From a bacterium (GTDB lineage Bacteria > JAJVIF01 > JAGGVT01), in assembly GCA_021157815.1 (NCBI GenBank), contig JAGGVT010000199.1, positions 1 through 15,831 of the forward strand: a stretch of DNA of 15,831 bases. Direction: 5' to 3'. Positions 4,273 to 7,889 of the stretch are shown piece after piece. Below the pieces are notes generated by a model. The model did no database searches. It was given only the letters and a program-made list of their open reading frames with translations, and was not told where the DNA came from. Position 1 is the first letter of the stretch. Every line of letters starts with the position of its first letter. The translations under genes and the position numbers were made by a program.

Positions 4273-5811
4273 TTATGCATTCTGATTCTCCAGAAGGGGC
4301 GCGATATCAAGAGCGCGTTCGATTGAACTGTTCTCTAATTCTCTCAGGTCGATATCCAGAGGTTCGGGCATTGTGGCTCCATTGCTGCCTCTGAGCAGGG
4401 TTATCATTGGCTGGAATGGCCTTTGGTAATTCGCCTCACGTACGATGCCCTCCTCACCTGATCTTAGTTTCACATATGTTCCGGGCGGATAAATTCCGAA
4501 AATATTCAGGAATATGGTTGTTATCTCAGATGAAACGAGCACATTCGGTGACTGGTAGATCATCTGCGCGGCGGCGTGGAAATCGCGTTTGACATTATGC
4601 AGCGGGTCGGTGATTGCCATGTCATAGACATTGGCAACAATCATAATCTGCTCCATTATGCCGAGTTTTTCTCCCTTGATGCCTCTAGGGAATCCCTTGC
4701 CATCAAATCGCTCGTGATGGTTTAACACAATAGTGAGCATTTTTTCATTGAACCCGCCATGTTTCATCAGGTAGCGGTATCCGGTCATGGGATGATTGCG
4801 ATACACATCCGGATTCTTATCCTCATCTGCCGGATGGATAATCTTGCCGACATCGTGCATCAAAACCGCTTCTCCAGCCGCGATAATATCGCCCTTTTTA
4901 AAATCGAACACCTTTGCAAGCGCTGTGAAAACCACAAGGGTATTAAACGAATGGGAGTATATTTTTGAATTGAAGAGGAAAATGTCCATCAGGCTCAAAG
5001 TTTTGGATTCATCCGCCAGCATCTGAGAGACAACGTCCTGCGCAACATCCCTGACCGGTGCAAGGTCCACATTGCTGCCCTCCTGCATTGTCTTCAGAGC
5101 TTTCTCAAGAGTGTTTACAGCGCGGAGTTTTGTCTCCTGCCTGACAGCCTCCCTATGTGTGATATTTTCCATGAGACTAACATATTCCCTTCGCTTAAAT
5201 CGCGGTTCACGCGGCATTTCATCAGCGAAGAAAAAGCCCTCGTTGAAATCCTGTGATGTTTTCGCTGGTTCATCCCATGTTTCATGCACATCCGGGATTT
5301 GTTCCGCAATCTCTTCGGCAATAATCTCTATTTTGTCAGGTTCACCCTCAATCGTGGATGTTTCCTCAGGTGCCAGCTCGGTTATTGATATTGGTTCGCG
5401 ATACCTGACCTTTTGAATTCCCCGCGCGGTTAGTATTTCCAGGATTGCGGGTGTAATCAGCGTTCCGCGTGCGAGAAGAAGTTCATCATCCTCGTCAAAC
5501 AAATCCTCTTTGAGTTCCGATTCAACCTCAATATCATCCAGTTTGAAGAACATATGTTTTTTTTCCTGTTCCTGAGTTTGAGTTATATCGCCGACGCTCT
5601 GCGCAAGAGAAAGGCTTTTCATCTGTGAATCAGCATAGAGGACATCCGCTACAACAGCCATGCAGGATTCGCATATTTCAATATGCTTAAGCCAGAAATT
5701 CTCCTGTTCCGGCGAGAGTTTATGCTCTAAAAGAGCAAGAGCGATTCCCTCATCCACAAACCTTCTGCAGAGGTCTTCCTTTTTTATTATTTTCTTTATT
5801 TTTTCTTTCAT
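4273..5811 (-). CDS. zf-HC2-like anti-sigma module fused to HD-GYP domain
   Basis: A 512-residue cytosolic protein. Residues 15-50 carry Cys15 and then His43-x3-Cys47-x2-Cys50, the zinc-binding pattern of ZAS (zf-HC2) anti-sigma factors. Residues about 88-140 resemble the N-terminal region of many HD-GYP proteins (LARGTLITPAILEIL). An acidic linker runs to about 205. The HD-GYP domain (about 225-435) has His287, His319-Asp320 (MHDVGKI), His340, His365-His366-Glu367 and DGKGFP (370-375). This class hydrolyses cyclic di-GMP. The usual Asp ligand of the VAD motif is Asn394 here (VANVYD), and the Glu four residues before the first His is Lys283, so activity is uncertain. The tail (440-475) fits the usual HD-GYP C-terminus. 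The gene starts 32 nt after the ECF sigma gene, supporting the anti-sigma reading. The domain architecture is seen; regulation by a nucleotide signal is inferred. Confidence 0.85.
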   Translation of the reverse strand: MKEKIKKIIKKEDLCRRFVDEGIALALLEHKLSPEQENFWLKHIEICESCMAVVADVLYADSQMKSLSLAQSVGDITQTQEQEKKHMFFKLDDIEVESELKEDLFDEDDELLLARGTLITPAILEILTARGIQKVRYREPISITELAPEETSTIEGEPDKIEIIAEEIAEQIPDVHETWDEPAKTSQDFNEGFFFADEMPREPRFKRREYVSLMENITHREAVRQETKLRAVNTLEKALKTMQEGSNVDLAPVRDVAQDVVSQMLADESKTLSLMDIFLFNSKIYSHSFNTLVVFTALAKVFDFKKGDIIAAGEAVLMHDVGKIIHPADEDKNPDVYRNHPMTGYRYLMKHGGFNEKMLTIVLNHHERFDGKGFPRGIKGEKLGIMEQIMIVANVYDMAITDPLHNVKRDFHAAAQMIYQSPNVLVSSEITTIFLNIFGIYPPGTYVKLRSGEEGIVREANYQRPFQPMITLLRGSNGATMPEPLDIDLRELENSSIERALDIAPLLENQNA

Positions 5812-5843: not shown

Positions 5844-6482
5844 TCACGCGGCTGTGCGGCTGCTGTCCTCCATCATGATTCGCCTTAATGTTACAAGCGA
5901 TTTCTGAATCAGCGCGCCAACACTTCCCTCAGGCATTTTCAGTTCATCGGCGATTTCCTTGTATTTCATGTTTCTAATATATCTCATGGTTAGCGCCTGT
6001 CTTGCCAGTTCAGGAAGTTTGGCTATCTGCCGTTTGAGATCCTGAATTTCACTTTTCTCAAGAACCTTGACATCCGGGGCAAAATGGCTGTTGTCCGGAA
6101 TATCCATTGGCAGGTCATCAAGCGAAATGTTATCCACTCCTCTACCGCGTTTGATGGTAAGTATCTTGCGGTAATACTGGCGCACTCTATTGATTGTCAG
6201 GCTGTGAATGTATGTTTTCAGAATTGACTGCTTTCTGAAATTCTTAATTCCCTTAACAAGGTCCTCGAAAACGTCATGGCAGATATCCTCGGCATCCTGG
6301 TCAGACAGCCTGTAATTTTTTCCCTTTATGAGCTGATAGACATAAGCGTAGAAACCATCATACAGAATTTTCCACGCGTGGTCGTCGCCAGCTTTAAGCA
6401 TATCAACAAGCTCGGATTCCGAAAGGTCTCCAAAACGCCTTTTCGATTTAGCTTTCATTTTATCCAGTGCAGATTCGCTCAA
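5844..6482 (-). CDS. ECF-type RNA polymerase sigma factor
   Basis: A 212-residue sigma-70-family protein with only regions 2 and 4, as in ECF sigma factors. Region 2 (about 22-105) contains DQDAEDICHDVFEDL and a Leu-rich, Arg-rich 2.4 segment. Region 4 (about 146-203) contains LPELARQALTMRYI and the helix-turn-helix YKEIADELKMPEGSV. The start is uncertain: the longest form begins with TTG at 6482, while an ATG at 6458 (residue 9) would remove only a non-conserved lead. Neither has a strong Shine-Dalgarno. The gene heads a two-gene unit with the anti-sigma/HD-GYP gene downstream (32-nt gap). Target promoters cannot be predicted from this window. Confidence 0.92.
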   Translation of the reverse strand: MSESALDKMKAKSKRRFGDLSESELVDMLKAGDDHAWKILYDGFYAYVYQLIKGKNYRLSDQDAEDICHDVFEDLVKGIKNFRKQSILKTYIHSLTINRVRQYYRKILTIKRGRGVDNISLDDLPMDIPDNSHFAPDVKVLEKSEIQDLKRQIAKLPELARQALTMRYIRNMKYKEIADELKMPEGSVGALIQKSLVTLRRIMMEDSSRTAA

Positions 6483-6524: not shown

Positions 6525-6655
6525 ACGAAATGAAAACTCAATTCCGTATTAATATCGCCATAAAAGGTATGTTATGGACGAAAAGAGGTATTTATTATGG
6601 TGCAGTTGGTGTTGAATTAAAACAAGACATTAAAGTTGTGGTGCGGCAGGGGACT

Positions 6656-6705
6656 GAAGCTCCGGCTTTCCGGCAAGGGTGCCGAAGCTCCCGGCATTCC
6701 GACAA
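6656..6705 (+). repeat. Imperfect direct repeat of ~21 bp
   Basis: The phrase GAAGCTCCGGCTTTCCGGCA (6656-6675) is repeated as GAAGCTCCCGGCATTCCGAC (6684-6703) with a few changes. It sits in the 6483-6736 gap between the divergent sigma and ilvE units and is more G+C-rich than its surroundings. It looks like a decayed dispersed repeat. A 102-codon ORF through it is not credible as a gene. Apart from the palindrome at 6510 I see nothing else in this gap. Confidence 0.5.
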
Positions 6706-6736
6706 CATCATGCTAAAGAATCGTTGTTTGAAGGCT

Positions 6737-6765
6737 TTGAAATGTGTTTTTCTTAATGTTATAAT
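6737..6765 (+). promoter_or_regulatory. Consensus sigma-70 promoter for the ilvE leader
   Basis: TTGAAA (6737-6742) and a perfect TATAAT (6760-6765) are separated by exactly 17 bp. Transcription would start at about 6771-6773, only a few bases before the ATG of a short Ile/Leu-rich ORF at 6777, making a nearly leaderless message. It is the best promoter in the window. Confidence 0.75.
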
Positions 6766-6776
6766 CGCTGGGCGTT

Positions 6777-6848
6777 ATGAGAAATTTAATTGCAGGCATC
6801 GGCATTATTATTCTTGGTGAGCTTGTCATAAAGCTTCACCTGAACTGA
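6777..6848 (+). CDS. Putative branched-chain amino acid leader peptide
   Basis: A 23-codon ORF that begins ATGAGAAATTTAATT and ends at TGA 6846-6848. The peptide reads MRNLIAGIGIIILGELV and then IKLHLN: 6 Ile, 5 Leu and 1 Val in 23 residues, including the run Ile-Ile-Ile-Leu at 10-13. It lies directly behind a consensus promoter, 6 nt before an intrinsic terminator, and upstream of an ilvE-like gene. That is the layout of ilv/leu leader peptides, whose ribosomes stall when charged Ile, Leu or Val tRNA is scarce. Weak points: there is no Shine-Dalgarno, the 5' leader would be about 5 nt, and a hydrophobic micropeptide would show similar composition. Confidence 0.55.
   Translation: MRNLIAGIGIIILGELVIKLHLN
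6816..6840 (+). promoter_or_regulatory. Hairpin inside the leader ORF (possible pause hairpin)
   Basis: GGTGAGCTT (6816-6824) pairs with AAGCTTCACC (6831-6840) through 9 bp with one bulged base and a 6-nt loop. A ribosome stalled on the Ile codons at 6804-6812 would cover its 5' arm. This is where the 1:2 pause hairpin of a classical attenuator belongs. I did not find a strong alternative pairing of its 3' arm with the terminator 5' arm. Confidence 0.45.
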
Positions 6849-6854
6849 TATTTC

Positions 6855-6886
6855 AACCCCCACACAAGTTTGTGGGGGTTTTGCTT
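6855..6886 (+). terminator. Intrinsic terminator upstream of ilvE (attenuator)
   Basis: AACCCCCACA (6855-6864) and TGTGGGGGTT (6871-6880) form a perfect 10-bp stem with loop CAAGTT, followed by TTGCTTT. The hairpin is strong; the T-tract is interrupted by GC. It lies 6 nt after the short leader ORF and about 40 nt before the ilvE-like start codon. With no other gene between it and the promoter at 6737, it must act on a short leader transcript, either as an attenuator of ilvE or as the end of a small RNA of about 115 nt. Confidence 0.8.
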
Positions 6887-6926
6887 TAATTCATTCTATT
6901 TGATTTATATTCAAGGAGATATATCA

Positions 6927-7817
6927 ATGGCTAAGATTCATACTTGTGTAAACGGCAAACTGGTTCCCAAAGATGAAGCCACAATTTCACCCTACGACCA
7001 CGGATATCTGTACGGCGACGGCACTTTCGAGGGCATCAGAATCTACAACGGTCGCATTTTCAAGTTCAAGGATCATATGGACAGGCTATATGATTCATTG
7101 AAAGTTCTTCGAATTGAGATAGCGATATCTCGTGAGGAGCTTGAAGCTGATATCATTAAAACAATCCAGAAGAACGAATTATACGATAAAGGCTACATTC
7201 GCCTTGTGATTTCACGAGGGATTGGCGACCTGGGCATCAATCCGCGCAAATGCACTCATGATCCGACTGTGGTAATCATCGTTGATTCAATTCAGCTTTA
7301 TCCCGAGGAGATGTACGAAACCGGAATTGATGTTATTACATGTTCAACCCGTAGAATGGTTTCGCAATCGCTGAATCCCAGAATCAAATCACTTAATTAC
7401 TTATGCAACATATTCGGAATCTTCGAGGCAAATAAACAGAACGCGCAGGAGGGAATCATGCTCACAATTGACGGGTATGTTTCCGAGGCGACTGTTGACA
7501 ATCTCTTCCTGAAGAAAAACGGCCAGATATGGACTCCACCTCTTTATCTTGGAATCCTCGAGGGCATTACCCGCAACACTGTCATGGATCTTGCGGTAGA
7601 AAAAGGCTATAAGATGGAAGAAAAAACATTCACTATTTTCGATGTTTACACCGCGGATGAGGTATGGCTGACAGGTTCAGGAGCGGAGCTTATTCCAATC
7701 AAGGATGTTGATGGTTTGATAATCGGCGAGGGTAAAGCTGGTCCGGTTTTCAAGGAACTGAGAGCTGCATTCCAGGAGCTGACAAGGACGACGGGGTTTG
7801 AGATTCCAAGGAAGTAG
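6927..7817 (+). CDS. ilvE: Branched-chain amino acid aminotransferase (class IV PLP)
   Basis: A 296-residue fold-type IV PLP aminotransferase, most likely the branched-chain enzyme that interconverts Val, Leu and Ile with their keto acids. Visible family features are YDHGYLYGDGTFEGIR (23-38), PLP-binding Lys154 in PRIKSLNYL, SEATVDNLF (186-194) with Glu187, TPPLYLGILEGITR (203-216) and LTGSGAELIPI (248-258). Length fits. The ATG at 6927 is preceded by a strong AAGGAGAT; an in-frame TTG at 6870 lies inside the terminator hairpin and is rejected. The relatives D-alanine aminotransferase and aminodeoxychorismate lyase cannot be fully excluded by sequence, but the Ile/Leu-rich leader upstream favours ilvE. 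It appears monocistronic, as a strong terminator follows at 7862. Confidence 0.85.
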   Translation: MAKIHTCVNGKLVPKDEATISPYDHGYLYGDGTFEGIRIYNGRIFKFKDHMDRLYDSLKVLRIEIAISREELEADIIKTIQKNELYDKGYIRLVISRGIGDLGINPRKCTHDPTVVIIVDSIQLYPEEMYETGIDVITCSTRRMVSQSLNPRIKSLNYLCNIFGIFEANKQNAQEGIMLTIDGYVSEATVDNLFLKKNGQIWTPPLYLGILEGITRNTVMDLAVEKGYKMEEKTFTIFDVYTADEVWLTGSGAELIPIKDVDGLIIGEGKAGPVFKELRAAFQELTRTTGFEIPRK

Positions 7818-7861
7818 ATAGTAGTCAAAGGTTGATTTTTATATCTCATCCCCCCCTTAAT

Positions 7862-7889
7862 CCCCCCGCGAGCGGGGGGAGTTTTTTTT
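7862..7889 (+). terminator. Strong intrinsic terminator after ilvE
   Basis: CCCCCCG and CGGGGGG form a perfect 7-bp stem around CGAG (one more pair is possible), followed by AG and eight T residues. It lies 44 bp after the ilvE stop codon. The core sequence, a C-run, GCGAGC and a G-run, also resembles widespread intergenic repeats. Confidence 0.88.

Follow-up and report, generated by a model that had tools for sequence, protein, structure and literature searches.

A possible translation-permissive leader, with an Ile/Leu/Val-rich ORF and a closely placed terminator, upstream of a lone ilvE-like gene

Introduction

Does a short open reading frame (ORF) rich in Ile, Leu and Val codons, lying between a promoter and an intrinsic terminator, control the branched-chain aminotransferase gene behind it, and with which sign? 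The question is raised by a 15 831-nt stretch of bacterial DNA, referred to here as the window, in which a first-pass annotation had proposed a transcription attenuator ahead of ilvE. The sign of such control may depend on where the leader stop codon lies. With a stop codon set 5 nt ahead of an intrinsic terminator, termination in an E. coli reporter fell from ~90% to <10%, and uncoupling translation abolished this stop-codon effect and restored termination; in amino-acid attenuators the terminator lies >20 bp from the leader stop, and over the first 100 nt a ribosome rarely catches up with a polymerase that does not pause (PMC4824070). Ile/Leu/Val-rich leader peptides followed by terminators are also described upstream of ilvB in Actinobacteria, where the switching is unclear (PMC1262725; PMC10272879).

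Results

Anatomy of the region upstream of ilvE

The leader is headed by a sigma-70-type promoter on the plus strand (TTGAAA-17-TATAAT with a TG-extended -10, positions 6737-6765) that matches the consensus at 11 of 12 positions; by consensus scoring just one more site in the 15.8-kb window reaches 11. Its start site is expected at ~6771-6773, 7 nt past the -10. A plus-strand ORF of 23 codons (6777-6848; MRNLIAGIGIIILGELVIKLHLN and a stop codon) begins nearly leaderless, with a 5' leader of 4-6 nt from the predicted start site, and no Shine-Dalgarno precedes it. Twelve of its 23 residues (52%) are Ile, Leu or Val, including Ile-Ile-Ile-Leu at codons 10-13, and the hydrophobicity of the peptide (Kyte-Doolittle 2.12 over 19 residues) would allow it to form a membrane segment. 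Within the ORF, in its 3' half, lies a plus-strand hairpin, hairpin 1 (GGUGAGCUU...AAGCUUCACC, 6816-6840), with a folding energy of -12.0 kcal/mol and a predicted probability (P) of 0.99. It is possible that hairpin 1 acts as an RNA polymerase pause hairpin, although inspection by eye found no clear pause consensus in the leader.

Downstream of the ORF, a terminator scanner called a plus-strand intrinsic terminator (6855-6888) with a broken U-tract, UUUUGCUUUA. Its stem (6855-6880) has 10 perfect pairs, -17.0 kcal/mol and a predicted P of 0.93; the tail, counting the last two Us of the stem, reads UUUUGCUUUAA. The ORF stop lies 6 nt before this stem and 78 nt before the ATG of ilvE (6927-7817, plus strand), which has its own Shine-Dalgarno, AAGGAG, at 6913-6918 on the same strand, 8 nt ahead of the ATG. 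The gene product is a fold-type IV aminotransferase (PF01063) and scores over the cut-offs of the branched-chain amino-acid aminotransferase models NF006185/PRK08320 and TIGR01122. A terminator scan found a second, strong plus-strand terminator behind the gene (7861-7880; TCCCCCCGCGAGCGGGGGGA, then U8), which makes ilvE monocistronic; next to that U8 the tail of the leader terminator looks weaker, and since its U-tract is broken the leader terminator may simply leak. Every element and spacing that the first-pass annotation had listed is present, the nearly leaderless start included.

Between the terminator and ilvE (6881-6926) there is no convincing second promoter: the predicted start of the top candidate, TTGCTT-18-TATATT, falls within the ilvE Shine-Dalgarno. 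From sequence, a transcript begun at ~6772 would reach ilvE solely by passing the terminator.

Just upstream of the promoter lies a copy of a G+C-rich dispersed repeat (GAAGCTCCGGCTTTCCGGCAAGGGTGCCGAAGCTCCCGGC..., 6640-6716, plus strand; 33 matches in the genome), a neighbour rather than a part of the leader. Its copies occur in both orientations and sometimes form close opposite-strand pairs (e.g. C98, C31, C207 and C193). Divergent from ilvE, on the minus strand, are a gene for a sigma-70-family (ECF-like) factor (5844-6482) and, downstream of it, an HD-domain (HD-GYP-like) gene (4273-5811).

Rarity and distribution of the leader

How unusual the ORF is was gauged against shuffled and genomic backgrounds. 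An ATG ORF of 15-40 codons with at least 50% Ile/Leu/Val arose in 0.56% of dinucleotide shuffles of 6772-6926, and one with at least 12 such residues in 0.14%. Genomic ATG ORFs of the same size reached at least 50% in 12 of 2853 cases (~0.4%), a background rate taken from a sample of 20 stretches (~307 kb) of the organism's own genome. Since the ORF was picked by a reader out of 15.8 kb, these rarity figures are not corrected probabilities. The ORF also folds above codon-order shuffles (fraction 0.028), and the predicted RNA 6772-6886 is more stably folded than its shuffles (z -3.06). Among 212 called genes sampled, few are preceded by a terminator-like hairpin, and just one other has both promoter and terminator, an automatic count that serves as a rough guide only, as it placed the ilvE start wrongly and overlooked the case in the window itself.

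Homology searches place the leader unit in no known family. Beyond itself, the ORF has no homologue in its own genome or in three class relatives, and the unit matches nothing in Rfam, Pfam or NCBIfam. The T-box model (RF00230) has no match in the window at the gathering threshold and none among the relaxed matches at 6620-6960; relaxed Rfam matches to the rnk leader and NsiR1 were rejected, being far below their cut-offs.

Three genomes, of the same class at closest, served as relatives. Their ilvE is 57-58% identical to that of the window and has different neighbours, and no comparable upstream ORF or terminator precedes it in any of the three. Contig scans for closer relatives gave nothing in the first instance and, in the second, distant ilvE homologues (48-54% identity) among the matches listed. 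Two class-relative loci (L004, 1440-1495; L005, 1340-1421) carry a promoter TTGAGC-17-TATACT, and their predicted ilvE transcripts have a stable hairpin at the extreme 5' end (CCCGTTCCCG...), followed in L005 by U5. These hairpins were considered as terminators and rejected; because that of L005 sits at the very start of the transcript, it is read as a putative 5' hairpin.

Across 98 ilvE-type upstream regions, scanned with automatic start-site calls and with the strand inferred for several minus-strand loci, an Ile/Leu/Val-rich ORF directly before a non-T-box terminator occurs only in the window. One other locus (L070) has an Ile/Leu/Val-rich upstream ORF and a terminator, but this terminator belongs to a T-box. 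Terminators upstream of Firmicutes ilvE homologues are largely T-boxes: by Rfam, a T-box ends ~70-160 nt before the ilvE match in 6 of 17 Firmicutes and other non-class loci (L070, L109, L121, L131, L132 and L140), and a seventh (L073) has one elsewhere in the locus. A terminator governing a lone ilvE is therefore known in kind, which qualifies the earlier remark that attenuation is not commonly described for such a gene.

Branched-chain metabolism of the genome

The source genome (3.2 Mb, 221 contigs, 91% complete) has no ilvB over the cut-off, the best hit (21 bits) lying in a region that by eye is 2-oxoacid:ferredoxin-oxidoreductase-like, and at this completeness it has no ilvD match. The same searches for ilvB, ilvC and ilvD were positive in 14 of 14 control genomes. 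Likewise, no over-cut-off ilvB and no ilvD match occurs in the three class relatives, of which one is 99% complete, and ilvE is kept in all four genomes of the class. LeuA matches are below the cut-off. There is one ilvC-like gene in the organism's own genome, standing alone (C137), and its presence leaves it uncertain whether branched-chain biosynthesis has been lost. In front of this lone gene, L067 positions 1-190 hold a tandem array of GTTAGCAGGTTAGCAA-like units. A search with PF13458 (LivJ/LivK-type binding proteins, including those for branched-chain uptake) found no match, and the uptake side of a salvage picture is thus unsupported. We infer from gene content that the lineage probably lacks the usual route of branched-chain amino-acid synthesis and that IlvE may serve in salvage or breakdown.

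Folding of the leader with a masked ribosome

The nascent transcript was folded with the ribosome footprint masked at each codon in turn. With the ribosome on the Ile run, the P of hairpin 1 falls from 0.99 to 0.00-0.18, bearing out the earlier suggestion that stalling there would open it. The terminator stays at 0.92-0.93 all the same, because nothing in its stem can pair with the strand freed from hairpin 1. Its P is 0.91-0.95 with the ribosome at any codon up to 6840 and 0.78 at 6843; with the ribosome at the stop codon it drops to 0.25-0.29, a result valid for footprints that extend at least 12 nt past the A site.

For an antiterminator partner, the best duplex with the 5' arm of the terminator is -3.8 kcal/mol, which 68% of shuffles equal. 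Five attenuators of E. coli K-12 (thrL, leuL, ilvL, trpL and hisL) put through the same procedure gave antiterminator duplexes of -12.0 to -23.4 kcal/mol, so that the absence of an obvious 2:3 antiterminator, remarked on in the first-pass annotation, is upheld. In thrL, leuL, trpL and hisL the terminator 5' arm is captured upstream with the ribosome at particular codons (P ~0.4-0.7). The masking scan misses the ilvL switch at most codons, and there only the duplex energy (-17.7 kcal/mol) reveals the antiterminator.

Set beside classical attenuators, the leader has the run of pathway codons (12 of 23 Ile/Leu/Val, with Ile-Ile-Ile-Leu) and an intrinsic terminator that separates the leader ORF from the structural gene. 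It has no antiterminator that excludes the terminator and is favoured by stalling at control codons, and its terminator, instead of lying more than ~20 nt beyond the leader stop, begins 6 nt after it (18-61 nt in the E. coli controls). Textbook attenuation is not supported, as two tested features fail, and for this reason we do not file the leader as a textbook attenuator: of the earlier reading, the promoter-ORF-terminator anatomy is supported, and the starvation-responsive mode, with a terminator at ~0.93 under Ile-run masking and a 6-nt gap, is not. A feature of the pyrBI type is present by geometry, namely an ORF whose translation would end near enough to the terminator (6 nt) to block it.

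Discussion

The 6-nt gap between stop codon and stem, against the >20-bp rule, predicts a polarity opposite to that of amino-acid attenuators. We postulate that a ribosome on the Ile/Leu/Val-rich ORF would follow the polymerase closely and arrive at the stop 6 nt before the terminator, where it would cover the base of the terminator 5' arm, block the hairpin and let transcription enter ilvE. When charged Ile-, Leu- or Val-tRNA is short, the ribosome would lag at the Ile run, the terminator would fold and ilvE would not be transcribed. Since the ribosome modelled at the stop codon opens the terminator and a lag at the Ile run does not, the ORF would couple ilvE to branched-chain plenty. We tentatively favour this translation-permissive leader, in which the completed peptide lets the polymerase through and ilvE is transcribed while the supply of branched-chain amino acids is ample. 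Evidence for it comes from the order of promoter, ORF, terminator and ilvE, and from the finding of a rare Ile/Leu/Val-rich ORF at a predicted transcript start ahead of a branched-chain aminotransferase gene. Control of this sign fits an aminotransferase used for salvage or catabolism, in a lineage where neither ilvB nor ilvD is recognisable. Against it count the missing Shine-Dalgarno of the putative ORF and its 4-6-nt 5' leader, the broken U-tract, the ilvC homologue, the unmatched PF13458 and the lack of a clear pause consensus. The full picture, of a reversed-sign leader peptide in a deep lineage without recognisable branched-chain biosynthesis, is doubtful.

Nearly as likely as reversed polarity is a leaky terminator behind an ORF present by coincidence, with no amino-acid sensing, a possible arrangement that would yield a short RNA, with a constant share of polymerases reading through into ilvE, the ORF arising by chance from U-rich leader sequence or going untranslated. 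The broken U-tract, the ORF without Shine-Dalgarno, the missing antiterminator and the absence of the ORF from the class relatives all point this way, and a half-percent coincidence is plausible in a feature chosen out of a 15.8-kb window. It would, however, leave to chance that an ORF of a kind making up ~0.4% of its size class begins where the transcript is predicted to start, stands before the gene of a branched-chain enzyme and folds beyond its codon-order shuffles (0.028).

Classical starvation attenuation as in ilvL and leuL, with stalling at the Ile run leading to antitermination, is unlikely. The Ile-Ile-Ile-Leu run does lie upstream of hairpin 1, and perhaps UAAAGC (6829-6834), once freed from that hairpin, pairs with GCUUUA (6883-6888) over the U-tract; sequestration of this kind has been proposed before, in the ilv-leu leader of S. 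aureus (PMC5794164). This helix has a P of 0.77-0.96 with the ribosome at the Leu codon at 6813, versus 0.00 without a ribosome, but only 0.00-0.14 with the ribosome at the Ile codons themselves. The 6883-6888 tail, moreover, is able to pair only when the polymerase has already transcribed the release point, the stem of the terminator is retained, and the stop lies 6 nt from the terminator as against >20 bp in known cases (PMC4824070) and 18-61 nt in the E. coli controls.

We also consider it improbable that 6772-~6886 is an independent small transcript that codes for a small membrane peptide or functions as an RNA, with ilvE read from an unrecognised promoter. A self-contained promoter-ORF-terminator unit, a hydrophobic peptide and folding above shuffles are what it would explain; it is opposed by the want of a good promoter at 6881-6926, of a family match and of any homologue. 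Least probable by a clear step is a terminator governed by another factor (an antitermination protein or a ligand) with an incidental ORF, which accords with the rarity of the promoter-terminator-gene order in the genome sample and is at odds with a leader of only ~155 nt holding no recognisable aptamer or T-box.

Known systems resemble the translation-permissive reading in part. The ilvL, leuL and thrL attenuators of enterobacteria and the S. aureus ilv-leu leader share with the window a pathway-rich ORF, a hairpin within it, a terminator and a structural gene; the window differs in having no antiterminator, a terminator 6 nt rather than >~20 nt after the stop, and a lone ilvE in a genome with no recognised ilvB or ilvD. 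The E. coli leader peptide pyrL senses UTP via polymerase pausing. As in our proposal, a close ribosome at pyrBI prevents the terminator, and translation favours read-through (PMC5021804, PMC4824070), whereas in the window the variable would be the translation of branched-chain codons and the pause site is putative. At the tnaCAB leader of E. coli, a ribosome at the leader-peptide stop promotes catabolic gene expression when the amino acid is abundant. TnaC acts via tryptophan-induced arrest and Rho. In the window, unlike at tnaC, the terminator is intrinsic and there is no known arrest motif; the tryptophan-induced arrest is described in PMC8429421. Firmicutes T-box leaders before ilvE homologues likewise place a branched-chain aminotransferase gene under terminator-based amino-acid control, but they are ~220-nt tRNA-binding RNAs without a leader peptide, and the window has no T-box match.

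If the translation-permissive reading is true, moving the stop next to the terminator can invert the leader-peptide logic of the enterobacterial ilv and leu operons, and a single hairpin would be enough for a sensor of amino-acid plenty serving a catabolic or salvage gene. The polarity of uncharacterised leader peptides could then be predicted from a simple, searchable measure, the distance from stop to terminator.
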